Shown here one piece after another: positions 11,301 through 36,457 of a DNA stretch of 64,000 nt (positions are counted from its first letter, which is position 1; every line of letters begins with the position of its first letter). The notes under the pieces are model-generated. The model did not search any database, was not told where the DNA came from, and was given only the letters and a program-made list of their open reading frames with translations. A program made the position numbers and the translations under genes. The DNA is from Pricia mediterranea (GTDB taxonomy: Bacteria; Bacteroidota; Bacteroidia; Flavobacteriales; Flavobacteriaceae), in NCBI RefSeq assembly GCF_032248455.1, contig NZ_JAVTTP010000001.1, positions 2,292,501-2,356,500 of the forward strand, read 5' to 3'.

Positions 11301-14300
11301 GGTGTTCAGTCCCGTCAAGGCAGTAAATCCGCTTGGGCCCGTCACTTCAAAAGTATAGGGTGCTCCACCACCGCCCGTGATATTTTCTATGGTAATCAGA
11401 CCGGGCAAGCTACAGGATATGTCGCCAGTTGCGACCGCAGATGCAGTCAACGGTGGTAGTTCGGGTACATAGACGTTTTCACTGGCACCCCTACAGGCAT
11501 CGGTGTTTGTACCGTCCACCTGAATAACATCGAGATAGTAATCTCCTTCATCCAGCGGTACGGTTGTCGAAATGGTATCGTTGTAGATCACATTGCCACC
11601 ACTGGTTTGAATTGCTGTTGCATTGCCCACTTCGTAAAGCTCCCACCGCATGTTAGGATAGGCAGTGTCGGGGTTTAGCTCGAAGGTTATGGATCCGTTG
11701 GCCGCTCCGTCACAACTTGGTGTAACATCGGGGGTTATTTCAATAGGAATGTTGGTCACAACCTCGTTGACATTAACGTTGCTCTGTCGAATACAGCCGG
11801 AGCCATCCTGGACATAGAACACATAGGTTCTTCCGGGAACCAAAAGCGGAAGTCCAGGGGTCGGAGGGGTCGTCGGATCGATATTCGCAAAGGTATGCGG
11901 GGTCCCTGCCGGGATATAGCCGGTCCATACCGGGGTCGAGGAGGCAAAATTTGCGGGATCATCGGAGTAGGTATAGCGATATCCGCCCATGGAAATACCG
12001 TCTCCCTCACTACCTTGAACGGTTACTTGTAGGTCGTTGCAGTTGTAAATAATGGGATTGATGGTGATATCCAGATCATCCAACGGATATTCAATGACAT
12101 ATCGGTCAAAGTCCCTTTGGCAGACCGTACCGCTCGCCAATGTCACCCGAATCGATGGAAAAACCTCTGTACCGGAAGCATAGCCCCGCAATTCGTTCGA
12201 AGCTTGCCAAGAACTGCCACCATCAGCACTGTATTCGACCGTACCAGTCGGGGTTACGACAGTATCGAATTCAAATCCATATTCGTTAATATCCGGGTCA
12301 TTGCAGGTTGAAGGCAATATCGGCAGGATATCGGCAGTAATTTCGGTGGCATTGTTGACGGTGATAGTCGATGAGGTAATCGTACAGCCGTTCGTATCCG
12401 TAATCGTAACCTCATAATCGCCAACACCTATGCCGTTGAACGGCGTAGATGACGCAAATACATTGGTAAGAGTGCTACTGTAATCTATACTGTCGGCGGG
12501 GGACAGGTCCGTCAGGCTATAGGTAAAAGGCGCAGTTCCGCCACCTACCGTAGCATCGATGGAACCAAGGCCATTGTAGCATTCCGGGTTGGTCGGGGTG
12601 CCGCTGGCCGTTAACGGGGCGACTGGAGTCAGGATGATATCTTCCTGTAAAAACGAGCAGGTACCGGAGCCATTATCGTCAAGCACATAGACATCGTAAC
12701 CTGCCGGATTGGCCGTGGCCATTGCATTGGTTACTGTCAGTGAATTCGTTGTGGTATAAAGGCCAGAGGGGCTCGTACTGGCAGGTACAATGGCATAGAC
12801 CAAAGTTCCGTTTCCTCCGGTCGCGTTTATGGTAATCTGTCCGTCGTTACAGGCGCTGATATCGGTCACATCGACCGAAGCGACAAGTTGCGGGGCAATG
12901 GTCGCGGGTGTCGGTGCCGGTAGGGGTGCGGGACATCCAAAGGAATCCCGGACCTCGATATTGTAGGTGCCGTCCGAAAGATTGTTAAAAGTATAGGTGG
13001 TATTTGAAACAGGGGACGGGATCATCCAAGGACCGCCATCGATCCTGAATTGATAGTTTCCGTTCCCGCCAGTTACGTTTACCTGGATGCTTCCATCGTT
13101 GGCTCCGGAGTAACATACGGTCGGGACGACATCAAAGGCAACGGCATCCGTTGGGACCACGGTAAGGGGGCTATCGATTTCATCTCCACACCCGTTAATA
13201 TCCCGGGTACGTACGATATAATCGCCGGCGGGAAGTCCCGTAAATACAGTATTTGTTCCGTTTGTTGCAAAGTCGTAGGATGCGATGGGGGTTCCGCCGG
13301 TATCCTCCAATTGGAATTCGTAGGTCGGTGTGCCTCCTGTCCCGCTGGCGGTAATGGTCGCGCCGCCGTTGGTACAGGTCAGCTCATCGGTTACACTGGC
13401 CGAAGCGACCACCACTGTAGGTTCTGTCAAGGTTCGGTTCAGGGTAACGACACATCCGCCAAGTGGCGTGCCCAAGACCGCGTTATCGACATCACGGACC
13501 TCGATGGAATAGGCTTGTGCGGCCAGACCGGTAATTTGTTCGGGCGCAGTAAACGGTCCGACAAAAGTAGTCCCGCCGTCAAGGCTGTATTCGTAGCCGC
13601 CAGCACCATAGTTATCGGCGTCGATGGTAATCGTTCCGGTTCCATCATTATGACAGTCTAAATTTTCGGAGGCAGTAATCGAGGCTTCAAAGGCGTTGCC
13701 GTCAGCCACGATAGCGGTTAGGTCAACCGTACAGTTTCTTCCGTAGTCAACTGTAATGCTATGGCTGCCTACAGCCACGTTGTTGAATACGTTGGCCCCG
13801 GGGCCGGATACGGCGGGCGCACCGTTTAAACTGTAGGTGTAGGTCGCATCGTAAGGTGTTACGTTAATGTTTCCACTGCCGTCGCAATTGTAGTCCACCG
13901 TCGTGGCCAGGGTCGGCTCCGTGGGCAGGGGATCGATGATGGCATTCGGAAGGTTGACGCTACATCCGGGCGCATTGGCGTCGCGGACACGAATGATGTA
14001 GGTGCCGTCGGTCAGGTCTGTAAAGGTATGGGCCGAGGTGGTAGCGGCCGTCCAGGTACCGCCGTTGATGCTGAACTGGTAGTTGCCGGTGCCTCCGGTC
14101 AGAGTCGTTCCGCCTACGGTGATTTCGCCCAGCTGGGTACAGGTGTAGTTTTGGGTCAGATCGGTATCGGCATCCAGAATCGCAGGCTCGTCCACGTCGA
14201 CATCCTGAGGTAGGGTCTCACAATTGTTGGCATCACGAACGATAACAGGATAGGATCCCGCAGAGAGGTTGGGGAAAGAGCTTCCGGTAAAAAAGGTTGC

Positions 14301-17300
14301 CCCATTGTCGATACTGTAGGTAAACGGACCGCTTCCCCCGGAATCCACCGTAATGGAAATGGCACCATTGGAACCGCCGAAGCAGGTCACATCGGTCGGG
14401 GTAACCGTGCTGGTTATCGGGGCATCCTGGACTACGGTCAGGGGGTACATCGCCTGGCAGTAATCCGAAGGGCCGGTTCCACCGTTATTATCGCGAACAT
14501 AGATGTCATAATCACCTGCCGCGGAAACCGTAACCGGGTTTGCGGTACTAAAATCACCATCGACGACGGCGGCACCGTTGTTGACCACGGCATAGACATA
14601 ATTGGTGTCCCCGCCTGCAGCGGAAACCGTAATATCGGTATCCGTAGCGCATGCAGTAATGTTAGGGGCAGATGCCGTAACCGTCAACTGGGGGTCGATA
14701 GTAATGGTTTGGGCAGCTCCGACGCAGCCCGCACCATCCCGAACATTGATGGTATAGGTGCCATTGGCCAATCCGCTAAAAGTATGCGATGTGGCGGAAG
14801 CCGGACTGGGGGTGATCCAAGGTCCACCGTTGAGGCTAAAGGTATAGTCATTGTTGCCATTGGTAACATCTGCCCGAATAGTGGCCGAGCTTCCACCGGA
14901 ATAACAGGCGGTCGGGTCTAGGTCAAAAGTTACCGGATTGGTATCCGCAACCGGTAAAGCGGTATCGATAGCATCTTCACAGTTGTTGTGGTCGCGTACC
15001 CGAACGATATAGTCGCCGGGGAGCAGTCCCCCAAACACGGTATTGTTGCCGTTGGTCGCATAGTCGAAACTTCCAATCACGCTTCCGGCATCGTCTTCCA
15101 ATTGGTATTCGTAATTGGGAGTACCGCCGCTGACACTGGCGGTAATGGTCGCCCCACCGTTGGCACAGGTGTAAGAGGTAGTAATATTGGCATCCGCCAC
15201 CAGGGTGCTTGGTTCGGTAATGGTCTCCTCAACAAAAGCGGTACAGCTGTGCTCGTCCGCTCTTCGGATATCGATACGCTGGATACCGGCACCGATTGGT
15301 GTGCTAGTGGTAACGGGAGAACTGGTGGAATTGCTCCAAGTTGAGCCTCCATCCAACGAATAATCAAAACCGGCCGCAGTATCAAAGTTCTCGACTTCGA
15401 AAGTAATCGTGGCATCGCTTGCGCCGTTACAGCTGGCGTTCGAGGTAGCCGTAACATTGGCGGAAAAGACACGCGCCGCTTCTACGGTTACCGGGGTTTC
15501 TACACTGAGTTCGCAGACTTCGGGAACTTGGTACACGGTAATATCGTCGATAGCAACATCGTTACCGTTGACTTCGCTTTCGTTGGTGGTGATGACCAGG
15601 TCCAGCGAAGAATTGGCCCCGGGGTTCAACGACAGTTCATATTCGTTCCAATTATTGTTTTCAGGCACCGCCCCTGTATTGGACGAGGCTACAACGACCC
15701 CGGCGCCGGGATCACGGAGTTCTATGGTGAGGTCAGGCTCGACCCCATTTCGGCCACTGCGCAACAGATTAATCAACCATAGGGATACTTCGATGGGTTG
15801 GTTATGGATAATATCGTTGATCGGCTTTTGATAAATGATCTGCCCGGGATTAGGTGCACCGATATTAATGACCAGGTACCTGCCTTGGGTAGATTTGTCC
15901 CCGGAAGTATGGTCCGTTGGGTTCAACCAAGCCCCGAAAGGACGTTCGATGTTAGAGGTCACCGCATATTCGTAGTCGTTGATTGCCCTTCCATTGTCAA
16001 TGGGCGCACCACTCGGGGAGGTATCGTCTTGCTGATTTTCGTAGAAATAGCCGGAGGTGTTCGGGTTGGGAATGGTACTGCCATATCCGAAATCTTCCTG
16101 CAACAACAAACTCGGCGTCGGGGGGGTCGATGAGGTATATCTGGTGCTGACCGTATAAGTTCCCGGGGGAACGTTTGGAAATATATTGCTGGTCGGATCC
16201 GGGGAGTTAATGACCCCATCCAAATAATAGGTATAATTATAGCTGGGTATATCGGGGGTAGCCGTTACAACTGCACTACCATCGCAAAGGTAACTGACCT
16301 CGGGGGTAAGGGTTACAGTGGGTTCGTCGGGAAGGTCTTCAACGGTAACGGCCATTGGGAACTCGCAGGAAGCGTCGCTCACGACAACGGTATAGTCGCC
16401 CGGAGGAAGCACTGCGATGGTTGACCCACCGTAAGTGGCCCCGCCGTCAAAACTGTACTGATACGTTCCGTTTCCACCTACGACATTGGTAATCCGAACC
16501 TCGGCCCCGTTCGGGTCACAGGTGGCGTCACGGGATACCCCTGCGGATGCACTCAAAGGAAAAGGTTCGGATAAACTATAGGTCTGGGATACATCGCAAC
16601 CGGAAGCATCCATCACCATAATTTCGTAAGTGCCGGTGCCTAAATTGACAAAATTTGGGGTGCTTTGGTAGGTAGTACCGTTGTCGATACTGTATTGATA
16701 CGGGCCTACCCCTCCGGATACGTTAATGGTCAAGGCTCCATCAGTATCGCCGCTACAGGAAGGTTGGGTCTCCGTAATCGAATCGATGGTCGTTGCCCCA
16801 TTGTCATTAATGGTCACCGGGTTCGAAAAGGCATGACAGTTGTTGGCATCGATGATGACGAACTCGTAGGTGCCATCGTCATTGGGAATATACTCCTCTG
16901 TACCGTTACCGTCATCGTCGCGCCATCCGAAATTAAAGGTATTGCCTACCTGATATTGGTCGGCGGGAATCGCGGCAATGTTGGGGTACAGGGCTGTTCC
17001 GTCCTTGCTCCATATGGCATAGAGGAAATCAGGATTCCCTAATCCACCCGTACGGGTCAGTTCGATGGTGCCGGCGGAACATCCGATATTAGCGGTGGTG
17101 ACGGCCGAAAGGGTGGGGTTCGGCGTTCTGCCGACCGTAATGTTTTGAGTATCGATACATCCATCTTCCGTACTGGTCTCCACGATATAGTCGCCCTGGT
17201 TTACCGTAAAGGTGTGGGTATTGTCAGGTTGCGCCGTTTCATCGTCGATCAAGGTGCCGTCGGACCGGCGAAGCACATAGGTATAGTCGGGTCTGACGTT

Positions 17301-19979
17301 CAGTACGTCAATTTGTATGCTGCCCTGGGCATTACAGTTCGCCGGAGTGGTAGTTATATCCACCTGAAAGTCACGATCGCGGATACCAATAGGCTCCGTA
17401 CTGAAGATACAGGCTCCTGGAACGGGCGTACCGGTGCCGTCCAATTGTACTACCTCTACCCGGTAAGAGCCGTTTTCTCCGGAACCGAAATCGAAAGCTG
17501 GTCCGTGTCCGGCACTGAAAGGTACCAAGATGGAGTTATTGGCATGATCGACCAGTTGGTAGCCGTAATTGCTGCCGAGATTCGTAATCCGGATACGCCC
17601 GTCACGGGTACAGATGATATCCCGCTGGTTGTATTCAATATCCAGATTGTTCTGGAAGACGTCGAAATAGAACCTGCTGAAGCATCCGTTGGTATAGTTG
17701 ATGACCAATCGGTATTGTCCTGCGGTATTGACCGTATAATTGTTTCCGGAGGCCACTTCATTCCAGCCACAGCTCGGATTTTTGTTGGAGCAGTCGTTCG
17801 GGGCAGCGGTACATCCGCCTGCCCCGATCGTAGCTTCATCGAGGCGTTCCCATATCAGGCTTTGGGCATCGGTAATGTTGATCTGCATCTCTTGCGATTG
17901 ATTCGCGCCGCAAAGAAAAATTTTGGGCATCGTGTCGCCATCCACGCTACAGGTCACCAGTTCTCCCTGAATGTCATTGGTAGGGTCGGCATCGCCGTTT
18001 AAATCGTTAAAATAATCGATTATAGGGTTGGTCTGGGTACTTCCGAAGCGTTCAACGGTAATGATTTCCTTAAAGCCCTTACAGGGGTCGGCGACAATTT
18101 TATCGACGATATACGTTCCGATGTCATCTACCAAGAGCGTACTGGGGTCGTTATCGGGGTCACCATCGTTCACGGGCGTATCTATACCGTTATCTATCTC
18201 GCCATTAGCGTTTACATCGCGGTACCATTCGTAAGCGTCGAAACCGTCACCGGCATCGAGGACCGCGTTGGCTCCACATAGTTGCACGGTTCGGGTAAAA
18301 TTGCAATCCGCCAAATCATCCAATAAAAAATTGGTGGCCCCTGGCGTTACGAACCCGCAATTGTCGAAATCGGATACGCTGGGGTCATCGGTAATCACCG
18401 CACTGTTAATATCGCCTTGATAGGTAGAATAGGCCAAATTTTGGATTCGGTCGGAGCAGGCATCGACAAAATCAAAGCAATTCGAGGCGACCTGCACCCG
18501 AAGACGTATCGTATATTTCGGATCACCGATCTCGACTCGATTATCGGGCACGTCAAAATCAACTTCATTGGTTGCGGTATCGTAGGTGGCCGTAACTCCC
18601 GGCGCCCCCGATAGGTCAACGCTCACGTAGCTGGTATTGGTCGGCAGCACATCGCGAATGCTGTAGTTGACGGCGTCATCGTTCCCTAAATTTCTAAAAG
18701 AGAGCACATAATCCAAGGTCTGACCGAGGTTGACGCCGGCATTGGTGATGTCGTTCCCGGCAATATCCTCCACCCGTTTTTCTAAAACGATGTTGGGTTC
18801 GATAATTTCTACGGCGAAAGCGGCCAGAAATGGGCCATAACCGTCCCCACTGGAGGTAAACCGCAACGTTGCCCCCGTTTCATCATTGGGCAAAACGGAT
18901 TCGTTGGGATTGTTCAAGTTAAAAAGGTCGAGGTCCGTGCCTAGCGTGTTGGTACCATAGGGCGTACGGGTCGGGACTTGGTTTCCATTGGTAGTAATGC
19001 TAGAATTAAAGAAGTTGTTTTTAAGATTGTTGCCCGTCTCCAATTGGGTAAAACCTCCGGTAACGGAATTTGCCCTGATTCTGAATTGATCTCCGTTGAT
19101 GCTGCGATCTCCTTCCAAGGCACCTACTCCGATTCTGGCCCTGACCGGAAAAGGCGTGGGCAAGGTTCGGAAACCGTTGACGGCTACATCGATGTTACCC
19201 GATGACCCTGATACTCCAGCATATCCATCGAAAGTCGAAATAAACTTGCCAGATTCATTGGGGTTTTCGTAGATAATGATCAACACCCATCCGGCGGAGC
19301 TCCCTCCGTTTCGTTTTCCTTTGGTTGCGCGAACATTGGCTACGGTATATTCCCCGTTGGGATTGACGTTGCTACGCACCAGATTGGTGACGTTTTTGTA
19401 ACAAATTACGGGCGCATCCTTAATGAACCTGCTGGGATCGGCGGGCCGATATCCGTTGGTAATAATATCGTCTTCCTGTCCGGGGGCGTCGGGGTTGTTG
19501 TCCGCCACTAAATCGACATAATTCCCTCCGGGAATTTTAAACTTAATTTCGTTCCAGCGTTCATCCCTCGGTGTGCCGGTAAAAGGCTCATTATCTGCGG
19601 TACTCCTATCGGTCGAATACGTACTCGCCCAATACAGCCCTGCATACCGCACTTGCGAACAACTGGGATCCGCCACGTTCAGTTCCGCACTGCTGGAGCT
19701 AAAGGTCGAGGGGTCGCCGTCGATGTCGATGTACTCCATTCTTTGATTGTTGTTGTTCGCATTATCGTTATACGGAACATTGGCATCTACAGCGTTCGTT
19801 TGACGGTTAAGGATGTTGTTGCCCACAAAGATGATATCGCCCCTTATTTTGATGTTGTCGCCATCTAATCTTGGCTCAAAGGGAACGTATTCCTGTGCGG
19901 ACATACATAGCCCGTTTATAAACAGGATAAAAAACAACAGGCGTTGAAAGTGGGTAGGTTTGATCAGTCGCATAGTCAT
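5361..19979 (-). CDS. sprB: Giant SprB-like gliding-motility adhesin
   Basis: A 4,872-residue surface adhesin, the filament that the gliding motor moves along the cell. It starts with ATG at 19979, overlapping the sprD stop by four bases. Residues 1-28 are a signal peptide ending MSAQ. Residues about 396-500 form a DUF11-like domain (VLEKRV, then SFRNLGNDDAVNY). From about 880 to 4620 there are dozens of SprB-type repeats, each about 70-90 residues, with a conserved Cys, a GxI strand, a YxYSxDNG segment and a GxYxVxVxDxxGC end. Residues about 1290-1490 interrupt the array with a different, lectin-like domain. The last 90 residues (NFFTPNGDGENQNW to the C-terminal HFTLYR) are the gliding-motility-associated type B sorting domain used by the type IX system. 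F. johnsoniae SprB is larger, about 6,500 residues. No frameshift is seen over 14.6 kb. Confidence 0.93.
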   Translation of the reverse strand: MTMRLIKPTHFQRLLFFILFINGLCMSAQEYVPFEPRLDGDNIKIRGDIIFVGNNILNRQTNAVDANVPYNDNANNNNQRMEYIDIDGDPSTFSSSSAELNVADPSCSQVRYAGLYWASTYSTDRSTADNEPFTGTPRDERWNEIKFKIPGGNYVDLVADNNPDAPGQEDDIITNGYRPADPSRFIKDAPVICYKNVTNLVRSNVNPNGEYTVANVRATKGKRNGGSSAGWVLIIIYENPNESGKFISTFDGYAGVSGSSGNIDVAVNGFRTLPTPFPVRARIGVGALEGDRSINGDQFRIRANSVTGGFTQLETGNNLKNNFFNSSITTNGNQVPTRTPYGTNTLGTDLDLFNLNNPNESVLPNDETGATLRFTSSGDGYGPFLAAFAVEIIEPNIVLEKRVEDIAGNDITNAGVNLGQTLDYVLSFRNLGNDDAVNYSIRDVLPTNTSYVSVDLSGAPGVTATYDTATNEVDFDVPDNRVEIGDPKYTIRLRVQVASNCFDFVDACSDRIQNLAYSTYQGDINSAVITDDPSVSDFDNCGFVTPGATNFLLDDLADCNFTRTVQLCGANAVLDAGDGFDAYEWYRDVNANGEIDNGIDTPVNDGDPDNDPSTLLVDDIGTYIVDKIVADPCKGFKEIITVERFGSTQTNPIIDYFNDLNGDADPTNDIQGELVTCSVDGDTMPKIFLCGANQSQEMQINITDAQSLIWERLDEATIGAGGCTAAPNDCSNKNPSCGWNEVASGNNYTVNTAGQYRLVINYTNGCFSRFYFDVFQNNLDIEYNQRDIICTRDGRIRITNLGSNYGYQLVDHANNSILVPFSAGHGPAFDFGSGENGSYRVEVVQLDGTGTPVPGACIFSTEPIGIRDRDFQVDITTTPANCNAQGSIQIDVLNVRPDYTYVLRRSDGTLIDDETAQPDNTHTFTVNQGDYIVETSTEDGCIDTQNITVGRTPNPTLSAVTTANIGCSAGTIELTRTGGLGNPDFLYAIWSKDGTALYPNIAAIPADQYQVGNTFNFGWRDDDGNGTEEYIPNDDGTYEFVIIDANNCHAFSNPVTINDNGATTIDSITETQPSCSGDTDGALTINVSGGVGPYQYSIDNGTTYQSTPNFVNLGTGTYEIMVMDASGCDVSQTYSLSEPFPLSASAGVSRDATCDPNGAEVRITNVVGGNGTYQYSFDGGATYGGSTIAVLPPGDYTVVVSDASCEFPMAVTVEDLPDEPTVTLTPEVSYLCDGSAVVTATPDIPSYNYTYYLDGVINSPDPTSNIFPNVPPGTYTVSTRYTSSTPPTPSLLLQEDFGYGSTIPNPNTSGYFYENQQDDTSPSGAPIDNGRAINDYEYAVTSNIERPFGAWLNPTDHTSGDKSTQGRYLVINIGAPNPGQIIYQKPINDIIHNQPIEVSLWLINLLRSGRNGVEPDLTIELRDPGAGVVVASSNTGAVPENNNWNEYELSLNPGANSSLDLVITTNESEVNGNDVAIDDITVYQVPEVCELSVETPVTVEAARVFSANVTATSNASCNGASDATITFEVENFDTAAGFDYSLDGGSTWSNSTSSPVTTSTPIGAGIQRIDIRRADEHSCTAFVEETITEPSTLVADANITTSYTCANGGATITASVSGGTPNYEYQLEDDAGSVIGSFDYATNGNNTVFGGLLPGDYIVRVRDHNNCEDAIDTALPVADTNPVTFDLDPTACYSGGSSATIRADVTNGNNDYTFSLNGGPWITPSPASATSHTFSGLANGTYTINVRDGAGCVGAAQTITIDPQLTVTASAPNITACATDTDITVSAAGGDTNYVYAVVNNGAAVVDGDFSTANPVTVSAAGDYDIYVRDNNGGTGPSDYCQAMYPLTVVQDAPITSTVTPTDVTCFGGSNGAISITVDSGGSGPFTYSIDNGATFFTGSSFPNLSAGSYPVIVRDANNCETLPQDVDVDEPAILDADTDLTQNYTCTQLGEITVGGTTLTGGTGNYQFSINGGTWTAATTSAHTFTDLTDGTYIIRVRDANAPGCSVNLPNAIIDPLPTEPTLATTVDYNCDGSGNINVTPYDATYTYSLNGAPAVSGPGANVFNNVAVGSHSITVDYGRNCTVDLTAIVADGNAFEASITASENLDCHNDGTGTITIDADNYGAGGYEYSLDGGTTFVGPFTAPEQITGLAAQAYSIEVRDVDNAVLGTPLGGCVVTLNRTLTEPTVVVASASVTDELTCTNGGATITASGTGGTPTYEFQLEDTGGTPIASYDFATNGTNTVFTGLPAGDYIVRTRDINGCGDEIDSPLTVVPTDAVAFDVVPTVCYSGANDGSIQVNVTGGNGNYQFRIDGGPWMIPSPVSNTTYTFNNLSDGTYNIEVRDSFGCPAPLPAPTPATIAPQLVASVDVTDISACNDGQITINATGGNGTLVYAIVPASTSPSGLYTTTNSLTVTNAMATANPAGYDVYVLDDNGSGTCSFLQEDIILTPVAPLTASGTPTNPECYNGLGSIDATVGGGTAPFTYSLTDLSPADSIDYSSTLTNVFASSTPFNGIGVGDYEVTITDTNGCTITSSTITVNNATEITADILPILPSTCNDPDINEYGFEFDTVVTPTGTVEYSADGGSSWQASNELRGYASGTEVFPSIRVTLASGTVCQRDFDRYVIEYPLDDLDITINPIIYNCNDLQVTVQGSEGDGISMGGYRYTYSDDPANFASSTPVWTGYIPAGTPHTFANIDPTTPPTPGLPLLVPGRTYVFYVQDGSGCIRQSNVNVNEVVTNIPIEITPDVTPSCDGAANGSITFELNPDTAYPNMRWELYEVGNATAIQTSGGNVIYNDTISTTVPLDEGDYYLDVIQVDGTNTDACRGASENVYVPELPPLTASAVATGDISCSLPGLITIENITGGGGAPYTFEVTGPSGFTALTGLNTNPIQIPVNSPAGNYIVTVNDQYGCPVTLAPVALGLTPNPTITSVVQDNCSAPISLTVTGNSAAGNIRYALVPAGDPVPTSYLDNGGVFNNVAASSYDVYVMDGNGCSSVQTAFDVHPVLTARAALTKTLDCTGSPDATIEIEALTGSGSYEYSITNTAGAPAVARTAITTNPFDHQAPLAGDYTIIIYDTNTPDNPSCNREFTVNVPARLQPVVENITTTDITCHGDNNGTVTISAEDNGIGPFTFEITSMDGAATNIAPTSWTNTSASFTGLVPTNTAAGYVVTITGNASNGCTTNSGPITIVEPAAINVPPPAVAEFGCTIGNNLDNATITVNPTGGSGNFVRYLFTNTVTSTTVQDGSSNIYMETNVSGGTYDITVYDDTGCSQTTSATIAPFAALTGITAAPTVPSCVPGADGQVQVDATFNPGIGTNNIQYDIVGLDVVHNDTFTGNVATHTFIGLDIGTYEVTATNTTTGCFLQTAVEVTDPNTFTINTNIVNNVVCFGTNTGAITFSMVDATYTGGFDYQVFEQVTNNPVTTIANHGNLGPTPVVNLPAGDFYVAITQDGAPACTNQQNFSVAGPSAAITANTQVDPITCVGNDGVIEITNVLGGWGGYEYYVGTLAPTVATDYDPSPRFDALSPGTYESWVIDQNGCQTQIQSGIVLADPIPISANLQINQANCTNFEGEIEVSLPTGGQGSNYTYQLIRDGADIRAPQNSRIFSGLDAGDYQVRITDQWTCTFMTSPAEIIYEPIVPTTTVDKTIDCSVTPGGDITVTQTGGSGTFDYEVRYPGTLPTDPADDTSMAAASATFTGLTQVGNYVFTITDTATGHACSTTIAQRLETAVIPVLSVDDFTDVTCNGADDGTISVSVSDNGVGPYTFEIISGDGSSTSSPILPASTTNTTATFTGLRGTLAGIAYTVRATGINSCSTDITQQIVQPDAIANVNATVTEFGCSAGNSPDNATITIDDTVITGGSGTYGRYEFINMTTSTVVQDGANNTYTETNVTGGNYTINVYDDNGCVGSTTATIIPYVEISDALVTTTQEDACTPANSAEITVGVTVTPSSAIPNLEYTVNGINVTYSQTRTSTNNPESFTGLGFGNYRVSITNTDTGCIIETVHTIDNPDTIEAIATKLTDELCLNDGTDDGSFSVAINNYTGNYDYQVFAIADTPIGGVVSTDTSTPLIISNLPGGSYYIRVTATDAPQCADGSNVITINAPSDPITADIREEANVTCSNDQGRILVDPTGGEGPYTITIDDSGTQNFTETNVEAFIFEGLSAGSFHITVTDALGCVLSDNIDLIRPDNIVPTITATPLACFDGNTATVSATLAPRTNPVAPNYDYRLNRYDDMAGTTLLRTSAAQSTATFNGLAAGFYSITVSDDVSCSEETSIIEIVNPTEVQAALIRTSPLTCATGVELELSATGGSGTYEYSTDNATWNPMTSNSVNLPLSGMLSAGVYQYYVRDAANGCTSVLSNSIEEDIIEPLALTVDKSAAVINCNGDNTAIIYASATGGLGNYEYALYTHPSLTSASLVAGPQPDGEFVGLTVGTYYVNVTSGNATTRDCTAPAEEVIITEPDRLTYTESVTDATCAGENDGSITVTLSGGSGGYQYAISPNLNQFDDENTFEDLAPGTYRVIAQDSNGCFVELEYTIDEPEMLDITATVLPEVCTGEENGSIELTITGGTAPYSTRLSSESNFVQDRTILTDLASGGYFVFVRDAMGCEENIAVTIDSGVDLNATVEPVYGCEGNIPSNYINIVLEDDNVSDEVLYALDSQDPADMQLNPFFRDIAPGTHYITISHANGCILTHTFEIDDYQPLTISVEQSNINELTATVNGGREDYTIYFGDHNNGSDTTYRINRTDTYVVTVVDENGCEASANIFIEFIDIEIPNFFTPNGDGENQNWKPRNDEGFPQILTIIFDRYGREVYRMGQGDSGWDGFYQQTELPSGDYWYIIKLNGENDEREFVGHFTLYR
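7560..9050 (-). repeat. sprB duplication block B, second copy
   Basis: About 1.5 kb coding five to six SprB-type domains, from TTTVDKTIDC to about ANVTCSNDQG. It aligns by eye, domain for domain, with 9485-10955. Matching marks include ITCHGDNNG/VTCNGADDG, EFGCTIGN/EFGCSAGN, SSTTVQDG/STVVQDG-type strings and FDYQVF/YDYQVF. Boundaries are approximate. Confidence 0.7.
9485..10955 (-). repeat. sprB duplication block B, first copy
   Basis: About 1.5 kb coding the domain series from ALTKTLDC to about DPITCVGNDG. The offset to the second copy is about 1.9 kb. At the DNA level short exact runs such as ACCGTCCTGAAC (near 10230 and 8310) remain, so the copies have diverged but are clearly homologous. 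Confidence 0.7.
12600..13695 (-). repeat. sprB duplication block A, second copy
   Basis: About 1.1 kb coding SprB-type domains from ITASENLDC to about NPECYNG. It aligns with 14405-15470. Shared strings include TNGGATITAS, YEFQLED, YDFATNG and IDGGPWMIPSP, matching the first copy with only conservative changes. Confidence 0.75.
14405..15470 (-). repeat. sprB duplication block A, first copy
   Basis: About 1.1 kb coding from VTATSNASC to about TDVTCFGG. It contains ANGGATITAS, YEYQLED, FDYATNG and LNGGPWITPSP, all mirrored in the second copy about 1.78 kb away. The DNA run CTGGCGGTAATGGTCGC is present in both copies. Confidence 0.75.
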
Positions 19980-22129
19980 GCCAGCTGGTTAGGTCTGACC
20001 CGCATAATCCACATTTTTTCGGAATACGAGTCGTTCAGGTTGGTGTAGTAAGAGAGTAGGGCACTGTTCCAAGAGGCGTGTTTTTTCAGGTAGACGTACC
20101 TCCAGTTGTTTTCTGGGTTGATAAAATAGCCTGCGCTAAGTCCGTGGGAATTTAAAAGCTTGACGAAGCGGTTCGCGTTTTTGGGATTGGCGAATACGTT
20201 TGCGATGATGTAATATCCTGACCCGATTCCCTCAATCTGATAGGACTTGGCCGAAAGTTCATTGTCGGCAACCCGGTCTTTGACGATCACGTTTTTCTGC
20301 AGGACATTCGTTTCGTACTTGGCTGATTTTTGCTTGAGCTTGTCCACATTGTTAGCATAGGCCTCATTGGTATAGCGGTTGTCGACGTTCATGATCCATA
20401 GGTCATCGGTATAGGCGCCGTTCATTTTCGATTTATGTGCGGCGAGGGCGTCTTGCCAAGTATCGTAGCGTTTTAGATACACGTATTTCAATCCATTATT
20501 CGGGTTATCGACATAATCGGGACTAAAACCTTGGTTGTACATGTCGTTGATGAACTTTTCCATGTACTTGCCACCTTTGTACACATTGGCGACCACGTAA
20601 TACCCGTCTTTAACCCCGTCGAGATCTCGGAATTTTCGGCCCTTGACCTTGTTTCGCTTTGCGGTCTGTGCGAAGTCATCGGTTTCGGCTTGATTATGGG
20701 TAGCGACGATAGCGGAGGTGTTTTTATTCTGGATTTTGTCCTTGGCCACGGTCGGGCGGTTTCGTGCCGCCGTAGCCGAGGTCAATGTATTTTTCCCCGT
20801 AGTGATCGTACCGGTTGCGGAGTTGCCGTCGTTGCCAGGGTTAGAAGTGGCCAGGGCGGGGCGTTCCCGGTCTCCCAAAAACAAATTTTCAGCTTCCCTT
20901 ATGATTTCCGGACGTTTGCCGTTGGTCTCGTTCCGGACCATGTTCATGACCATATTAAAACGGCGTTCCAGGTCTTTCTGACGACCGTTTTCCATGGAAT
21001 CCTGACGGAACATCAGCTCTTGAATGATGGCATCGTTCTCGGCCAGTTTCCTTCTTAGTTCGGCGATTTCTTCCTGGGCGGCCAAATCGTATGTGTCGGA
21101 TGCTTCTTCTTCCTCGGCATCTGCCAGCGAATCCTCAAAGCCATCCTCCAACATTACCCGGTCTTCGGTAAGGTTCGGGGTAAAGGAATACGCAAAGGAT
21201 ATTTCGTGGGTAATTCCCAGGTTGTTGAAGTCGGTGGAAAGTCCTTTTTCCATGGTATATCCAAGGGAAAGTCTGCGGTTGATGTTGAATCCGGCCCCTG
21301 CGGATGCCCCATAGAAAGTGTCATAGCCTCCCTGAAGCCAGCCAAGCTTGGGCAGGTCTAAAATCATTCCGCCCCCAAAGGAGATTTCCTTTGATGTTTC
21401 TGTTTCTGTAGCAAAACGGTTTTGTCCGTTCATACGCACCCGGGCCAACGGCATCAGGCGACTGCCTTCCATAATACCGTCCCCGTTTTGAAACGGATAG
21501 GTATATTGCAAATGCCCCGAATAGGTCTTATCGCCGAACTCGGTCAATGACTTGCTGGTCTTCAGGTTATAATCGAACAGGTTTTCGGCGAAGATCCCAA
21601 AATCGAACTGCCCGAAAGACAGGTTGAAACCGGGTTGAAAAGAGAATACGTTGCTGTCTTCGGTACCGTTCAAGCGGAAATCGTCGGAATCGATGACATC
21701 GACGCTGTTCCGGTCCAATCCGGTACTATAATAGGCCAAGTTGGCTCCGAAGGTAAAATTACTTTTTTCGCTTAGTTTAATGCCGTAGGCATAGTTGGCC
21801 AGCACTCCGATATTTGAAATCGGACCTAGTTTTTGGGTGTAGGCACTTAGGCCCAATCCGCTACGATCTCCAACCCTACCGCTATAGCTCAGAAAGTAGG
21901 TCTGATCGTTGTCCTGAAATTGTACCGATTGGTTTCGGTGCAATAGATTGACGTACGACTTATCTTCCTGGACCGTGGAAAAGGTGGGGTTGATCAAAAA
22001 CCGGTTGAACTTCAACAGGTTCTGGGAAGCGGGACTGTACAGCAAGATTGGGTCGTCTTCCTGGGCCTGAACACCCGTTAACGTCAACACGGCAATGAGG
22101 AATAAAGCGATATGTTTGACAAATTTCAT
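19976..22129 (-). CDS. sprD: SprD-like protein: PorP/SprF barrel fused to two SPOR-like domains
   Basis: A 717-residue outer-membrane-associated protein between sprC and sprB. Residues 1-22 are a signal peptide (GVQAQ). Residues about 25-315 resemble the PorP/SprF barrel: LLKFNRFLINPTFS near the start, then many beta strands. Residues about 340-400 form an acidic segment and a coiled coil (EEIAELRRKLAENDAIIQEL). A low-complexity Asn/Thr linker leads to two related SPOR-like domains at about 501-580 (GYYVVANVYKGGKYMEKFI) and 633-717 (GYYIIANVFANPKNANRFV), each ending in a W-I-M strand. In F. johnsoniae the sprC-sprD-sprB-sprF operon supports SprB-driven gliding. The start is seven bases after the sprC stop; the end overlaps sprB. 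The barrel plus periplasmic domains could bridge the outer membrane and a periplasmic target. Confidence 0.87.
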   Translation of the reverse strand: MKFVKHIALFLIAVLTLTGVQAQEDDPILLYSPASQNLLKFNRFLINPTFSTVQEDKSYVNLLHRNQSVQFQDNDQTYFLSYSGRVGDRSGLGLSAYTQKLGPISNIGVLANYAYGIKLSEKSNFTFGANLAYYSTGLDRNSVDVIDSDDFRLNGTEDSNVFSFQPGFNLSFGQFDFGIFAENLFDYNLKTSKSLTEFGDKTYSGHLQYTYPFQNGDGIMEGSRLMPLARVRMNGQNRFATETETSKEISFGGGMILDLPKLGWLQGGYDTFYGASAGAGFNINRRLSLGYTMEKGLSTDFNNLGITHEISFAYSFTPNLTEDRVMLEDGFEDSLADAEEEEASDTYDLAAQEEIAELRRKLAENDAIIQELMFRQDSMENGRQKDLERRFNMVMNMVRNETNGKRPEIIREAENLFLGDRERPALATSNPGNDGNSATGTITTGKNTLTSATAARNRPTVAKDKIQNKNTSAIVATHNQAETDDFAQTAKRNKVKGRKFRDLDGVKDGYYVVANVYKGGKYMEKFINDMYNQGFSPDYVDNPNNGLKYVYLKRYDTWQDALAAHKSKMNGAYTDDLWIMNVDNRYTNEAYANNVDKLKQKSAKYETNVLQKNVIVKDRVADNELSAKSYQIEGIGSGYYIIANVFANPKNANRFVKLLNSHGLSAGYFINPENNWRYVYLKKHASWNSALLSYYTNLNDSYSEKMWIMRVRPNQLA

Positions 22130-22136
22130 GACGGCT

Positions 22137-24389
22137 TTATCTGATGACGGTTATAGTACCCTGTTTCAAGGTTTCAACGGCATTTTTGATGACATAGTAG
22201 AAGACCATGTTCTGCTTGGAAAACGAGGTGGAAGACTCCGGCCAGTTGTTCTGATAGTTGGTGGCGTTCATTATTTCCGCACCTTTTGCATTGTAAATAA
22301 TCACGCTTACATCCGATTTGTTGGAATAGGAGTTCGGAATTACCCACTGGTCGTTTGATCCGTCGCCATTGGGGGTAATAACGTTCGGAATATTGAACAT
22401 TTCGAGATAGCTTACCTTGATGGGTCTGCTGACCTCACAATTGTCGATATTTGCAATGAGCAGGTAGTTTCCTTCTTCGGTAAAAGTGATCGATGCTCCG
22501 GTAGCTATTTCCGTCTGATCGGCGTCAAACCACCGGTATGCGGTTCCACCACCGGCGGTGATGGTTTTCGAGCTTCCCTCAGGAAAAATAACGTCTCCGT
22601 CGGTATTCAGACTGATCAAGTCCGGATCCAATGGCGCAATAGTGATGGTGTTCGACGTTATCGGGCAATCTCCCTTTTCGATGATTAATCGGTATATGCC
22701 CGGTTGGGTGGCAACGAACTCGGTATCCGTGGTATTGACCGAAACGCCGTTCCGCTCCCACGCGAAAGTCTCTCCTGTTAACACTGTTTCCGTACTCAGG
22801 GTTATGCTATCCGAAGCACTACAGTATATCGTACTGGTACTGGAAATAACTAGGTTTTCGCTACTGCCAAGCTGAACCGGAAGAGGGTTCGAAGCAGCCG
22901 TATAACTCCCAAAGCTTCCTTTTACTACGTAATTTCCGTTTTCATTGTTTGAGGTGAGGCTGATGCTTTGAGCGGTCTCCCCCGGAATATCCGTGCCGTC
23001 TTTTTCCCATGTATAGGCAAAGGTTGAGGCGGCATCTTCGGTGACGTCGATTTCATTGCCATCCGATAGTTCCGCATACACTTTATCGACTTCCAATACG
23101 ATACTTGAATTGTTGCAGGCGGTATAAGCGGTTCCATAATCGATTTCAAACCGGAAGGCGTTCGGACTTACCACTTCGGTGGTTTCCGAGGCGATGGTGG
23201 TGCTGCAGGTTCCGCTGGAAGTGACCGCCGCGTAATAGGTGCCGGCCTGGGTAACGCTGAGGGTGTTGCTGTCGGAAGACGGGATGGCCGTGGTGTTCCT
23301 GTACCATTGGTACGTGGGCGATACGGCATCGGTAGTCACGGAAAGGGTTTTGTTCTCCGAGGGCAGGACAACCATATTCGGGGCATTGTTCCTTGTCACC
23401 GTAAATTCGCCCGCATTGGTTATCGTAACGGCCGGGGAACGTTCGGTACATACGCCCGTACCCGAGATTTCTACCTGATAGTCTCCCTCGAAGTCCGCCG
23501 TGCTTCCGTTTACTGTATAAGAAGTGCCGATCGCTCCGGGAATGCTCGTACCGTTTTTATACCACTGATATGCCCAACTTGGGTCCGTGGTATCGATACT
23601 CAGGGTTTCGGCTTCCCCAGAACAAAGTCCCGTTGTAGAGGGAGCTGAGATGGCGACCCCCTGTCCCGATGCGTTGAGGGTCACTTGGGTGCCGTTCGAA
23701 TCCGTGGTGCCGCTACCGGAGCAGGCCCCATAATCGATCTGTACCGTATAGAACCCGTCTTGGGTCGCGTCAAGAAAATAGGTGCGGGTGGGAAGCAGGG
23801 TGCCGCTGCGATACCAATTGTACTGATAGGTTTCCGGAGCGGGCAGATTGTGCACTTCCAAGCGAACACTATTGGTACTGCTACAGACTGCACCCACTTC
23901 CCCGTCTCCGTCCTTACTTATAGCGAGGGCGGAGGTGAAGTCCATATAATAAAAGCTATAGGCGTCCGAAGTCTCTAGCCCCGTGGTAGCGGGACTCGTG
24001 CTTCTCACCCGCATTTTATACCCGTCGCCCCTGGTATCGGTAGGAATGGCAAATTCAAAGCCGGGATTCCTTACCGTGGTATTGCTCGATTCGCGGGCGA
24101 TCTCCACGGCGTTGGCGAAATTTCCGTTAGCATCTGATAGTTCTAGAATCCACTCATTGTCACTGTTGGGCGTGCCGGCAAAATTTACGGCCGCATAATA
24201 TTGGTTAAAGTCGTTGTTGTTCCCGGCGCACACCCTGTCCCATTCGCAAGGGGGACTCGAACATGATATATTGGGATTCTCCGCAGGCTCAGGTGCCAAA
24301 ATTGTCAATTGGGCCGAAACCTGTGCTGTGCCGAAAAATAAGATTAGTATTAGAAATCCAGGGGCGGTCTGAAGTAGTTTTGCTTTCAT
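22137..24389 (-). CDS. sprC: SprC-like secreted protein with Ig-like domains and type B sorting domain
   Basis: A 750-residue secreted or cell-surface protein, first gene of the spr operon. Residues 1-26 form a signal peptide (TAQVSAQ). The body contains several Ig-like repeats with a YQWYKNGT or YQWYRNTT strand and a GxYxVxxxxxxC end (about residues 190-640). The C-terminal 85 residues (NIPNVITPNGDGSNDQW to the end) form the gliding-motility-associated type B sorting domain, the same class as on SprB, so it should leave the cell by the type IX system and need a PorP/SprF-family partner; SprD or SprF are the obvious candidates. In F. johnsoniae sprC opens the same four-gene operon. It is divergent from glnS, with a 226-base shared promoter region. 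Confidence 0.87.
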   Translation of the reverse strand: MKAKLLQTAPGFLILILFFGTAQVSAQLTILAPEPAENPNISCSSPPCEWDRVCAGNNNDFNQYYAAVNFAGTPNSDNEWILELSDANGNFANAVEIARESSNTTVRNPGFEFAIPTDTRGDGYKMRVRSTSPATTGLETSDAYSFYYMDFTSALAISKDGDGEVGAVCSSTNSVRLEVHNLPAPETYQYNWYRSGTLLPTRTYFLDATQDGFYTVQIDYGACSGSGTTDSNGTQVTLNASGQGVAISAPSTTGLCSGEAETLSIDTTDPSWAYQWYKNGTSIPGAIGTSYTVNGSTADFEGDYQVEISGTGVCTERSPAVTITNAGEFTVTRNNAPNMVVLPSENKTLSVTTDAVSPTYQWYRNTTAIPSSDSNTLSVTQAGTYYAAVTSSGTCSTTIASETTEVVSPNAFRFEIDYGTAYTACNNSSIVLEVDKVYAELSDGNEIDVTEDAASTFAYTWEKDGTDIPGETAQSISLTSNNENGNYVVKGSFGSYTAASNPLPVQLGSSENLVISSTSTIYCSASDSITLSTETVLTGETFAWERNGVSVNTTDTEFVATQPGIYRLIIEKGDCPITSNTITIAPLDPDLISLNTDGDVIFPEGSSKTITAGGGTAYRWFDADQTEIATGASITFTEEGNYLLIANIDNCEVSRPIKVSYLEMFNIPNVITPNGDGSNDQWVIPNSYSNKSDVSVIIYNAKGAEIMNATNYQNNWPESSTSFSKQNMVFYYVIKNAVETLKQGTITVIR

Positions 24390-33400: not shown

Positions 33401-33912
33401 AGGGCGGTGAAAACGTGGCGGGGGAGCAAGGAAGCGGCTCTCAAGGCGAAAACGGCAACGGTGGCACACAAGGGCAAGGCCAGCCCAGCGAGGCCGAACT
33501 TCAGGAAATCTATGAGATATACAAAGAACAGCAGATGATCCGTCAACAACTTGAGCAGCAGTTGCAGGATTTGATTGACGCCGGCGATAAGAAACTGGGT
33601 CAAAAGTTGCTTGAACAAATGGAGGATTTTGAGAACGATCTATTGGAAAACGGCATCACCCAAAGGAGTATATCCAAGATTAACAACATTCAATACGAAC
33701 TGCTAAAACTTGAAAATGCCGCCTTGAAGCAAGGCCGTAAAAGAGAACGCGAAAGCAATACCAACACCAAAAGCTTTAACAACCCTATCCTTACCAAACC
33801 GGATGCCCTGAAGAATTATCGTAACGATATTGAGATTTTAAATCGGCAAGCCTTACCTTTGCGGCCCAATTTTCAAAACAGGGTAAAAGACTATTTTAGT
33901 GGCGATGATTGA
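30448..33912 (+). CDS. DUF4175-type large membrane coiled-coil protein
   Basis: About 1,154 residues. I chose ATG 30448 (MAGYKIILNKLSQFTRKYY) over 30409 because the upstream 13 codons overlap the promoter box and do not look like this family. Three membrane helices lie near the N-terminus (about residues 23-45, 50-75 and 150-172). A beta-rich region follows to about 480. From about 495 to 760 there is a long Gln/Lys/Glu-rich coiled coil (LKGLGQSLNTFKEQQRTLKE and onward). A low-complexity Gly-Gln-Glu stretch is coded at about 33180-33490. The family is widespread in Bacteroidota and has no assigned function; an envelope role is inferred from the helices. The last codons overlap ybeY. Confidence 0.85.
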   Translation: MAGYKIILNKLSQFTRKYYTKMLVKGLLLFLVLGLLFMFVVLGVEYFLWLDSTGRFILLMSFVAIEGYLLYRFILTPLFFLFKLRQGISNKQASLLIGKHFPEVGDKLYNLLDLAEDKSQSDLLMASMVQRSENMAPIPFAKAVDLRDALKYTKFLIIPIVLFGLIWLSGSLMSFFGSADRVVNYDLAYEPPAPFHFRLLSTDLSVLDTEAFAIEVVTEGSIQPEEVYININGTSSLLQKQNGRYRYTLTPPLKKAEFFFTANGVRSKPYILNALSTPSIKGFKMRLDYPDYTNRSSEVLRSTGNAIFPEGTEVSWEIEGQYTENIQLTAKDTTMSFNKQDDRFDLSQRIYADYPYELSTSNKNVQDYEKLEYRFNVVKDAYPVIKVKQVRDSLNPNISYYAGEASDDYKLRNIRLVCYPEDQPEKRQVVPLTKPNANFGQFYYTFPSGLELESGQRYSYYFAATDNDALHKGKTAKSQLFSTTLLDEGQLRNSELQSQQSLIKGLGQSLNTFKEQQRTLKEINREQKEKKRLNFNEQAQIKDFLQKQQRQENMMQKFSKQLKENLDKGQEDDQMNKLLKERLERQEIEAKKNEKLLEQLNKVADKIDKQELTRRLEELGKKQQSSERNLEQLLELTKRYYVTEKAAQLAKDLAEEAERQEILSQLKLGEEFSDTEQRKLNEKFEQLAKDLEELEKDNARLKKPVELKIDPSKKEGVKQDQKDALEQINKHQGTEQSSQSEEMEKAAQGASRKQKSAAEKMKQMSEELGKSASGGSGGSSITEDAEMLRQILDNLITFSFKQEALYDKLENTDADNAQFSETVREQQELRELFGHVDDSLFALSLRRAELSEFVNEQVAEVYFNVDKALESMAENQIYQGASYQKYVMNASNSLADFLANMLDNMQQSMMTGKGQGQGQDFQLPDIIKGQGELKEKMEGMGQQGKAQQQEGEGKGQQGEGQQEGAGEGDSQSGEGNKQGKGQEGQGGENVAGEQGSGSQGENGNGGTQGQGQPSEAELQEIYEIYKEQQMIRQQLEQQLQDLIDAGDKKLGQKLLEQMEDFENDLLENGITQRSISKINNIQYELLKLENAALKQGRKRERESNTNTKSFNNPILTKPDALKNYRNDIEILNRQALPLRPNFQNRVKDYFSGDD

Positions 33913-34324
33913 GTTTCACTACGAAACGGATTTTCGGCTGGAAAACGATTCCAACTATGCCGATTGGATAAATAGGATAATCGCCTCCGAGGGAGGACTG
34001 TCCAAGCGGATTGATTATATATTTTGCACCGATGCCTACCTTTTGGAAATGAATAGAAAATATCTGTCGCACGATACGCTTACCGACATCATTACGTTTG
34101 ATTATAGAGAGGGGAAGCAGGTGGGCGGAGATATTTTTATCTCCATCGACAGGGTCAAGGACAACGCGCAATTTTATAATGTAGCATGGGAAAGTGAGCT
34201 GCTTCGAGTGATGGCACATGGCGTACTCCACCTGTTCAATTACAAGGATGGCTCAGATGTCGAGAAGGCGGAAATGCGGGCTAAGGAAGAAGAGAAAATT
34301 AAATTGTTCCACGTGGAACAATAA
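33905..34324 (+). CDS. ybeY: Endoribonuclease YbeY (rRNA maturation factor)
   Basis: Single-strand-specific zinc endoribonuclease used in 16S rRNA 3' maturation and ribosome quality control. ATG 33905 gives the usual MIEFHYETDF start; a GTG two codons upstream is possible. The gene overlaps the DUF4175 stop by eight bases. Core motifs are NRKYLSHDTLTDIITFDY and the metal site HGVLHLFNYKD. The third metal ligand, His in the E. coli enzyme, is Asp here. The C-terminal codons (LFHVEQ) are written by the parS-like palindrome at 34305-34320, so the DNA does double duty. Confidence 0.93.
   Translation: MIEFHYETDFRLENDSNYADWINRIIASEGGLSKRIDYIFCTDAYLLEMNRKYLSHDTLTDIITFDYREGKQVGGDIFISIDRVKDNAQFYNVAWESELLRVMAHGVLHLFNYKDGSDVEKAEMRAKEEEKIKLFHVEQ
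34305..34320. promoter_or_regulatory. parS: parS site (perfect palindrome)
   Basis: TGTTCCACGTGGAACA is a perfect 16-base palindrome, extended to 20 bases by the flanking AT/AT (34303-34322). It matches the ParB-binding parS consensus TGTTnCACGTGnAACA. It lies within the last codons and stop of ybeY. Confidence 0.85.
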
Positions 34325-34563
34325 TGTGCAGGGCGATTCGTTGTATCGAGTTTTATAATTGTCAGGCAGGCATTAGGGCGTGGCGGCAGACCCTGATGCT
34401 TTTTGTCAATTTGTCGGAAACAGGGTATGCCCCTCGCGGCAACTTTAGTTGCGATTTGTTCAATTGGCGTCTTGCCGACAGGCGGTAAAAAATGCAAGCC
34501 TTTACGGCTTGAACGTGCAGAGATCGCTCGCCCGAAATGGCAGCGTATCAAAAACAAGACAGA

Positions 34564-36432
34564 ATGTTTGCAGAAAGATATGACATAATTGTAGTGGGCG
34601 GGGGCCACGCTGGTGCAGAAGCGGCAGCTGCAGCTGCCAACATGGGTTCTAAAACCCTACTGGTGACCATGAACCTACAGACCATTGGCCAGATGTCCTG
34701 CAATCCCGCTATGGGCGGTATTGCCAAGGGGCAAATTGTGCGCGAGATAGATGCTCTGGGAGGCTATAGCGGGATCATAACCGACAAATCCGCCATCCAG
34801 TTCAAGATGCTTAACAAGTCCAAAGGTCCAGCCATGTGGAGTCCCCGGGCCCAGAGCGATCGAATGCGCTTTGCCGAGGAATGGCGACTTGCCCTGGAGA
34901 ACACCCCGAATTGCGATTTTTATCAAGAAATGGTAAGCGGGCTTCTCGTCGAGGGGGGCAAGGTAGTTGGGGTGCGAACGTCGCTGGGTCTGAAGATCAA
35001 GTCGAGGGCAGTCGTTCTCACTAACGGCACCTTTTTAAACGGACTCATCCATATCGGCGAAAAACAATTCGGTGGGGGCAGGGCAGGAGAGCGAGCAGCT
35101 ACGGGAATCACTGAGCAGTTGATGGATTTCGGGTTCGAGGCCGGTCGGATGAAGACGGGAACACCGCCCCGAGTCGACGGCCGATCGCTAGACTATTCCG
35201 TCATGATTCCACAACCTGGGGATAAGAATCCAGACAAATTTTCTTATTTGGATACTCCGTTCTTGACACAACAACGGGATTGTCATATGAGCCACACCAG
35301 TACCCAGGTGCATGATTTGTTGCGCGAGGGCTTTGAGCGTTCGCCCATGTTCAATGGCCGGATCAAAAGCGTTGGACCACGTTATTGTCCCTCCATTGAA
35401 GATAAAATCCATCGATTCGCGGATAAGGAAAGCCATCAACTCTTCGTTGAACCGGAGGGCTGGAATACAGTCGAGGTCTACGTCAATGGTTTTTCCACCT
35501 CTCTGCCGGAAGATGTGCAGTTTAAAGCCTTGAAAACGGTTAAAGGTTTTGAAAAGGTCAAGTTTTTTAGGGCGGGCTATGCCATTGAATATGATTACTT
35601 TCCTCCTACCCAGCTTAAACATACCTTAGAAACCAAGCTGGTCGACAATCTTTACTTTGCTGGACAGATCAACGGCACCACCGGCTACGAGGAAGCCGCT
35701 TCACAGGGATTAATGGCCGGCATCAACGCCCATTTAAAGCTGAACGACAGGGAGTCCTTAATTTTAAAAAGAGATGAAGCTTATATTGGCGTCTTGATTG
35801 ACGATCTGATTACAAAAGGAACAGAAGAGCCGTATCGGATGTTCACATCAAGGGCTGAATATAGAACCTTGTTGCGGCAAGACAACGCGGACTTACGGTT
35901 AACGCCTAAGGGGTATGAGGTCGGTCTTGCAAGCGAGGAACGGCTAAGGAAAATGGAAGATAAAGAGCGCAAATCCCAAGCATTTGTCAATTTTTTCAAG
36001 CACACTAGCGTGCTGCCCAAAGATATAAACCCTATTTTGGACCGGCTGGATTCTTCTTTGGTCAAGCAATCCGACAAGATGTTCAAAGTATTTTCCAGAC
36101 CTAAGGTCAAAATGGAGCATATGTTGGAATTGGAGCCGGTTTCCAATTTTGTTGACGGCAACGCGATGAATAGGGAAGTGTTGGAGCAAACAGAAATCCA
36201 AGTCAAATACGCCGGATACATTGCCAAGGAAAAAATGAATGCGGACAAGTTGCAGCGGTTAGAGGATGTAAAAATCCCTGAAAATTTTGATTACTCCAAA
36301 CTAAAATCCTTGTCCTTTGAAGCTCGGGAGAAGTTGCAGGATGTTCAGCCGGTTACCATTGCGCAGGCCGGTAGGGTGAGTGGGGTGAACCCTTCGGATA
36401 TAAGTGTCCTTTTGGTTTATTTAGGGCGATGA
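34564..36432 (+). CDS. mnmG: tRNA uridine-5-carboxymethylaminomethyl modification enzyme MnmG
   Basis: FAD-dependent subunit of the MnmE-MnmG complex that installs the 5-carboxymethylaminomethyl group on wobble U34. About 622 residues, the usual size. ATG 34564 (MFAERYDIIVVGGGHAGAE) is preferred; the longer frame from 34537 adds nine residues that are not in the family. The dinucleotide site GGGHAGAEAA is at residues 11-20. Other hallmarks are CNPAMGGIAKGQ, GTFLNGLIHIG, RMKTGTPPR, and the FTSRAEYRTLLRQDNAD block that carries conserved MnmG residues. The C-terminal helical domain ends VSGVNPSDISVLLVYL. The gene is flanked on both sides by parS-like palindromes. The 240-base leader has short inverted repeats. 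Confidence 0.96.
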   Translation: MFAERYDIIVVGGGHAGAEAAAAAANMGSKTLLVTMNLQTIGQMSCNPAMGGIAKGQIVREIDALGGYSGIITDKSAIQFKMLNKSKGPAMWSPRAQSDRMRFAEEWRLALENTPNCDFYQEMVSGLLVEGGKVVGVRTSLGLKIKSRAVVLTNGTFLNGLIHIGEKQFGGGRAGERAATGITEQLMDFGFEAGRMKTGTPPRVDGRSLDYSVMIPQPGDKNPDKFSYLDTPFLTQQRDCHMSHTSTQVHDLLREGFERSPMFNGRIKSVGPRYCPSIEDKIHRFADKESHQLFVEPEGWNTVEVYVNGFSTSLPEDVQFKALKTVKGFEKVKFFRAGYAIEYDYFPPTQLKHTLETKLVDNLYFAGQINGTTGYEEAASQGLMAGINAHLKLNDRESLILKRDEAYIGVLIDDLITKGTEEPYRMFTSRAEYRTLLRQDNADLRLTPKGYEVGLASEERLRKMEDKERKSQAFVNFFKHTSVLPKDINPILDRLDSSLVKQSDKMFKVFSRPKVKMEHMLELEPVSNFVDGNAMNREVLEQTEIQVKYAGYIAKEKMNADKLQRLEDVKIPENFDYSKLKSLSFEAREKLQDVQPVTIAQAGRVSGVNPSDISVLLVYLGR

Positions 36433-36441
36433 CCAGCCCCA

Positions 36442-36457
36442 TGTTCCACGTGGAACG
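36442..36457. promoter_or_regulatory. parS: parS-like site, one mismatch
   Basis: TGTTCCACGTGGAACG matches the palindrome at 34305-34320 in 15 of 16 positions; the inner 14 bases are perfectly symmetrical. It lies nine bases after the mnmG stop in non-coding DNA. Confidence 0.75.

Follow-up and report, generated by a model that had tools for sequence, protein, structure and literature searches.

The window, by which we mean the whole stretch of 64,000 nucleotides that was analysed (contig NZ_JAVTTP010000001.1 of Pricia mediterranea, positions 2,292,501 to 2,356,500), contains the ybeY and mnmG genes, which lie on the plus strand together with the next gene. Two 16-bp palindromes that resemble parS, the loading site of the partition protein ParB, are located on the two sides of mnmG, and the first of them falls into the coding region of ybeY (Table 1). 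Compared with the parS consensus TGTTNCACGTGNAACA, which PMC10197239 quotes from Livny 2007, site 1 has no mismatches and lies in the middle of a perfect palindrome of 20 bp (34303-34322), and site 2 has a single mismatch, the last base being G. The preliminary description of this DNA had reported a perfect palindrome and a copy with one change flanking mnmG, and its letters and coordinates proved exact. In the frame of ybeY, site 1 is read by the codons TTG TTC CAC GTG GAA CAA (LFHVEQ), which are followed by the TAA stop codon at 34322-34324.

Table 1. Positions in the window of the two putative parS sites and of the genes around them (feature, coordinates, strand, remarks).
parS site 1 TGTTCCACGTGGAACA	34305..34320		in ybeY 3' end; exact consensus match
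parS site 2 TGTTCCACGTGGAACG	36442..36457		one mismatch; 9 nt past mnmG stop
ybeY, rRNA maturation RNase	33899..34324	+	TIGR00043, 86 bits vs cut-off 45 (scanned from 33905)
mnmG (gidA), between both sites	34537..36432	+	TIGR00136, 842 bits vs cut-off 525
ybeY-mnmG gap, 212 bp	34325..34536

The mnmG gene may instead start at the ATG codon at 34564, where the alignments of most relatives begin. Among the matches listed, the closest relatives of the MnmG protein are from Flavobacteriaceae (top identity 86%). The gap between ybeY and mnmG was compared with 1.64 Mb of the same genome; it has a single 24-base match there and is otherwise not repeated. Elsewhere in the window, the minus strand at positions 5361-24389 codes for a protein of 4872 aa that combines SprB repeats with a C-terminal domain for type IX secretion; beside it are a PorP/SprF-family protein and another CHU_C protein.

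No other CACGTG with matching flanks had been noticed in the window, and this holds: nothing else matches the motif with up to two mismatches, and the next match, at 58690, has three (3 matches with up to three mismatches versus 2.2 expected from shuffling). A search for the 16-mer with one mismatch allowed, proposed in the preliminary description, was performed in the whole genome (4,569,019 bases, or 4.57 Mb, in three contigs) and yielded few sites, clustered together, namely the two places that flank mnmG, 2.1 kb apart. Six further places have two mismatches, all of them beyond the window. The reversed motif, used as a control, occurs as often with up to one mismatch (2 versus 2 for the motif) and more often with up to two mismatches (17 versus 8), so the genome-wide count alone gives no evidence above chance, and the case for the sites rests on their pairing within 2.1 kb, their position and their conservation. 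Many scattered close copies, which had been named as an outcome that would speak against parS, were not seen, and the two-mismatch places scattered over the genome are outnumbered by those of the control.

The conservation of the sites was analysed in the best 80 of 591 mnmG loci of relatives (L038-L117), within 1.3 kb upstream and 0.6 kb downstream of the gene. With up to one mismatch, an upstream site is present in 75 of these 80 loci, a downstream site in 68, and both sites in 67; with up to two mismatches, the upstream site is present in 78. In the same loci the reversed motif was found zero times upstream, downstream or on both sides, and 60 shuffled palindromes occurred on either side in 0.02 loci on average and in one locus at most. 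Inside mnmG, no site with up to one mismatch was found in the 80 loci; one locus has a site elsewhere. The downstream site starts at a median distance of nine positions beyond the last base of the mnmG stop codon. Among 202 sites selected in these loci with up to two mismatches, positions 2, 3, 4, 11, 13 and 15 of the motif are identical in all 202, and the central CACGTG is nearly invariant.

Thirty-five of 40 genomes, that of P. mediterranea included, have a site with up to one mismatch. Of the others, G019, G029 and G035 have two-mismatch sites by mnmG, G008 is without an mnmG match, and G039, which comprises 0.3 Mb, has neither a site nor a ParB match. The association extends beyond the order. 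In other orders, 22 of 27 genomes with an mnmG match carry a site with up to two mismatches within approximately 350 bp of mnmG, five have no site by mnmG, and one further genome (G053) has no mnmG match; the reversed control gave one match in 30 loci. In other classes, ten of 23 genomes were chosen by hand and searched within 600 bp on each side of mnmG (112 bp on one side in G211); nine have the site, one (G204) has none, and the reversed control gave 0. The core GTTNCACGTGNAAC is present in 132 of 149 genomes of the class, P. mediterranea included, versus 27 for the reversed control (counted by hand).

Four Flavobacterium loci (L064, L069, L071, L072) have several parS-like sites arrayed between ybeY and mnmG, with a spacing of partly about 117 bp in L064. 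In L073, L083 and the L064 array, several upstream copies at one locus read CACATG instead of CACGTG. The MnmG proteins of two contigs labelled Limnohabitans (L057) and Chitinophaga pinensis (L080) group with those of Flavobacterium; judged by this grouping, the contigs are perhaps mislabelled or misbinned.

The genome of P. mediterranea has one match to a ParB model, located at 399 kb of contig 1, about 1.93 Mb from the sites on the same contig. This protein exceeds the cut-off of the ParB domain model TIGR00180 (165 bits), and its gene is directly preceded by a gene for a ParA-superfamily ATPase, whose matches do not reach the cut-offs of the models shown. In the PDB, the ParB is matched best by ParB and Spo0J proteins, and Noc chains rank lower. 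Arg173 and Gly201, described as the parS-binding state as opposed to Gln and Arg in Noc (PMC7383237), are present in all 35 aligned ParB proteins (this one and those of 34 relatives), the numbering of the helix-turn-helix stretch being matched by eye; three of 37 loci (L182, L200, L335) were left out of the alignment by its motif filter. Chromosomal ParA and ParB, the latter with contact residues of the parS type, are found together in this genome. A ParB match is present in 38 of the 40 genomes, P. mediterranea included. The genome G006 (80% complete) has the sites and no ParB match; L103 and L117 combine a ParB match with an mnmG that has no site beside it. With regard to the CACATG sites, ParB was compared in L337 and L340 and is unchanged at its ten contact positions.

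The sites could alternatively serve another DNA-binding protein, either a factor similar to Noc or a regulator acting on mnmG. They do flank a gene, and the Noc model TIGR04285 scores the ParB of this genome higher than the shorter ParB domain model does (235 versus 165 bits). However, the Noc score is below its own cut-off of 315 whereas the ParB domain score is above its cut-off, the two contact residues are those of ParB and not of Noc, the letters of the sites fit the parS consensus, and sites are located 3' as well as 5' of mnmG. We consider this explanation very unlikely.

The palindromes were also considered as RNA hairpins around mnmG, acting as terminators or processing signals. When folded, the RNA around site 2 does form a hairpin from the palindrome (z = -2.1; 6 of 200 shuffles are as good), a terminator-like match on the minus strand covers site 1, and the region has six such matches versus 3.9 expected. 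In the best 80 of 591 loci (L038-L117), with 201 of the 202 sites covered, a T-run follows the site in 43 of 201 cases on the plus strand and in 96 of 201 on the minus strand, where the plus strand is A-rich, compared with 158 of 1600 random positions on the plus strand. On the other hand, positions 5 and 12 are C and A on the plus strand in 41 of 202 sites and T and G in 24 of 202, combinations that do not pair in the RNA of the plus and the minus strand, respectively. Moreover, 158 of 201 sites are without a T-run on the plus strand, the direction in which ybeY, mnmG and the next gene are all read here, and the nearly invariant CACGTG is not needed by a hairpin loop. A role as hairpins seems highly improbable on these grounds. 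As a candidate, the intrinsic terminator was rejected given the C-A mispairs and the infrequent plus-strand T-runs, yet the excess of T-runs on the minus strand is noted.

The overlap of site 1 with ybeY was described earlier as a place where amino-acid and DNA-binding constraints coincide. We compared the ybeY 3' ends, as had been suggested, in 81 loci (the best 80 of 591 and the window). The site lies in the frame that encodes FHV in 40 loci, in another frame in three, where the tails read VSRET or VPRET, and only outside ybeY in 35; three loci have no ybeY match. In the FHV frame, the His codon is CAC in 40 of 40 loci, compared with a background of 37% in the ybeY and mnmG codons of the same loci, and the Val codon is GTG in 38 of 38, compared with 20%; the remaining two loci have ATG (Met). 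In L073 and L083, YbeY ends in FHMEQ because the site reads CACATG. The residue before the Phe of the tail is Met or Leu only. In a rapidly built MnmG tree with 77 rows, from which four of the 81 (L071, L074, L076, L102) were left out because of frame trouble and in which three of the 77 (L103, L107, L117) have no tail state, the state of the tail changes at least eight times. Since the CAC and GTG codons are frozen, and since in 38 of 81 loci the site is in another frame or only outside ybeY, it is the DNA and not the peptide that appears to be kept. We regard the tail FHVEQ as most probably a passenger, with the DNA motif setting the peptide wherever the ybeY frame crosses the site. The overlap itself is real, with codons and frames favouring the DNA side of the supposed double constraint; among relatives, the site is kept as DNA and the tail peptide varies. 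That the tail is selected as protein and the palindrome is incidental would agree with the presence of the FHV frame in 40 of 81 loci, the window included, but is extremely unlikely given codons frozen beyond what the amino acids need, the loci with another frame or with the site only outside ybeY, the repeated changes on the tree, and the same motif occurring again just 3' of mnmG in 68 of 80 loci.

The position of the sites relative to the replication origin was assessed by GC skew. Along contig 1, the sampled cumulative skew first declines and, after an almost level part between about 1.8 and 2.3 Mb, climbs up to the contig end; this level part makes the minimum broad. In 257 contiguous kb, the cumulative skew is lowest at 2.197 Mb, with a second dip near 2.284 Mb, and from 2.295 Mb onward positive skew prevails; the sites, at 2.327-2.329 Mb, are 130 kb from the minimum. 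In three other genomes, mnmG is likewise at the sites. In G017 the skew changes sign between 0.807 and 0.923 Mb and the site is at 0.932 Mb. In G024, values close to zero begin at 1.156 Mb, the site follows at 1.165 Mb, and by 1.414 Mb the skew is clearly positive. In G037, the 4-kb samples are noisy: they turn positive at the site, but the lowest sum lies elsewhere because of one extreme sample. At the available resolution, the few sites predicted as parS are clustered around the skew minimum, as anticipated in the preliminary description, and appear to be origin-proximal, the minimum being broad and 130 kb away.

The dnaA gene is not close to the sites. In P. mediterranea it is on another contig (contig 2, G000:C2:192928-194322, at 193 kb), the skew of which peaks near 100 kb; being about 90 kb past this maximum, dnaA is perhaps near the terminus, contigs 1 and 2 being unjoined in this genome. 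A dnaA match above the cut-off is far from mnmG in all seven genomes where both were placed, with approximately 0.5 to 1.9 Mb between the two genes in G017, G024, G037, G026, G035 and Polaribacter sp. BM10 (G040). In G024, dnaA is just beyond the highest sampled skew sum. Two single-contig genomes begin at dnaA. No cluster of DnaA boxes was found in 257 kb of the P. mediterranea genome, with at most two boxes per 500 bp. In the best 80 of 591 loci, the 2.5 kb upstream of mnmG contain 71 DnaA boxes versus 29 in the reversed control; they are spread, mostly from -1500 to -1000, which in this window is within the upstream gene. Downstream of mnmG in the same loci there is no excess (51 versus 62 in the control).

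A match to the consensus, the pairing of the sites, their recurrence up- and downstream of mnmG in relatives, the conservation of the ybeY copy as DNA, the nearby switch of skew and the contact residues of ParB together suggest that both palindromes are chromosomal parS, at which the ParB encoded on this contig, about 1.93 Mb away, would load; we put the probability of this reading at about 0.92. By analogy with the ParABS systems of other bacteria, in which ParB loads at parS and spreads and ParA moves the origin region (PMC7333895), ParB would bind each predicted 16-bp site and then spread over ybeY-mnmG and the neighbouring DNA by CTP-dependent sliding, and ParA would move the complex, making the origin region the first to separate after replication.

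The parS element is known already, and a location near the origin is what one would expect of it. The sites described here share with chromosomal parS of ParABS (PMC7333895) the 16-bp palindrome, the small number of copies, the origin-side location and a matching ParB in the genome; they differ in that the pair flanks mnmG, far from both parAB and dnaA, and in that one copy encodes the end of ybeY. Location within genes is not unusual in itself, as 9 of 10 predicted parS sites of Pseudomonas aeruginosa are also within coding sequences (PMC4368675); what differs here is that the site sets the tail peptide of a gene product, which varies among relatives. In single genomes of Flavobacteriaceae, oriC has been placed at mnmG by Ori-Finder and GC skew (PMC11278836, PMC12843772), in line with the origin-side position that the skew suggests here, and no connection with parS is drawn in the available text of these reports. 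According to PMC11278836, dnaA is misaligned with the skew (the legend of its Figure 3 swaps the label names), and oriC of Elizabethkingia is far from dnaA (PMC8994065). In 12 gut bacteria, including Bacteroides caecimuris and Muribaculum intestinale, clusters of parS mark ori, with parS being part of the definition (PMC10197239). As here, dnaA is not always near ori in these bacteria; a link to mnmG or ybeY does not appear in the accessible part of that study. A literature search that covered few subscription journals found no parS-mnmG link and no YbeY tail written by parS; the site lists of Livny 2007 may include these sites.

A bolder reading, to which we give even odds, is that mnmG with its parS sites represents an ancestral module of centromere and origin that the phylum Bacteroidota as a whole has retained. 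In this scenario dnaA and parAB would have moved off, dnaA sometimes to the vicinity of the terminus, and the sites would have stayed; the ybeY frame would have captured the site repeatedly, and a motif for DNA partition would thereby write the tail of a protein. In P. mediterranea the module may work without the canonical SMC condensin: the SMC model TIGR02168 gave nothing above its cut-off in the whole genome, with short partial matches of at most 29 bits.

parS by mnmG would provide a simple marker of the centromere and origin region across a large phylum, to be set against genome records that start at dnaA, a gene far from mnmG in the genomes where both were placed. PMC10197239 reports that no condensin homolog was found in the two Bacteroidetes examined, and the sites bear on the question raised there of how ParB-parS organises the chromosome where the usual condensin is not found. 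The end of ybeY offers a clear case in which a DNA-binding site appears to dictate the C-terminus of a protein.
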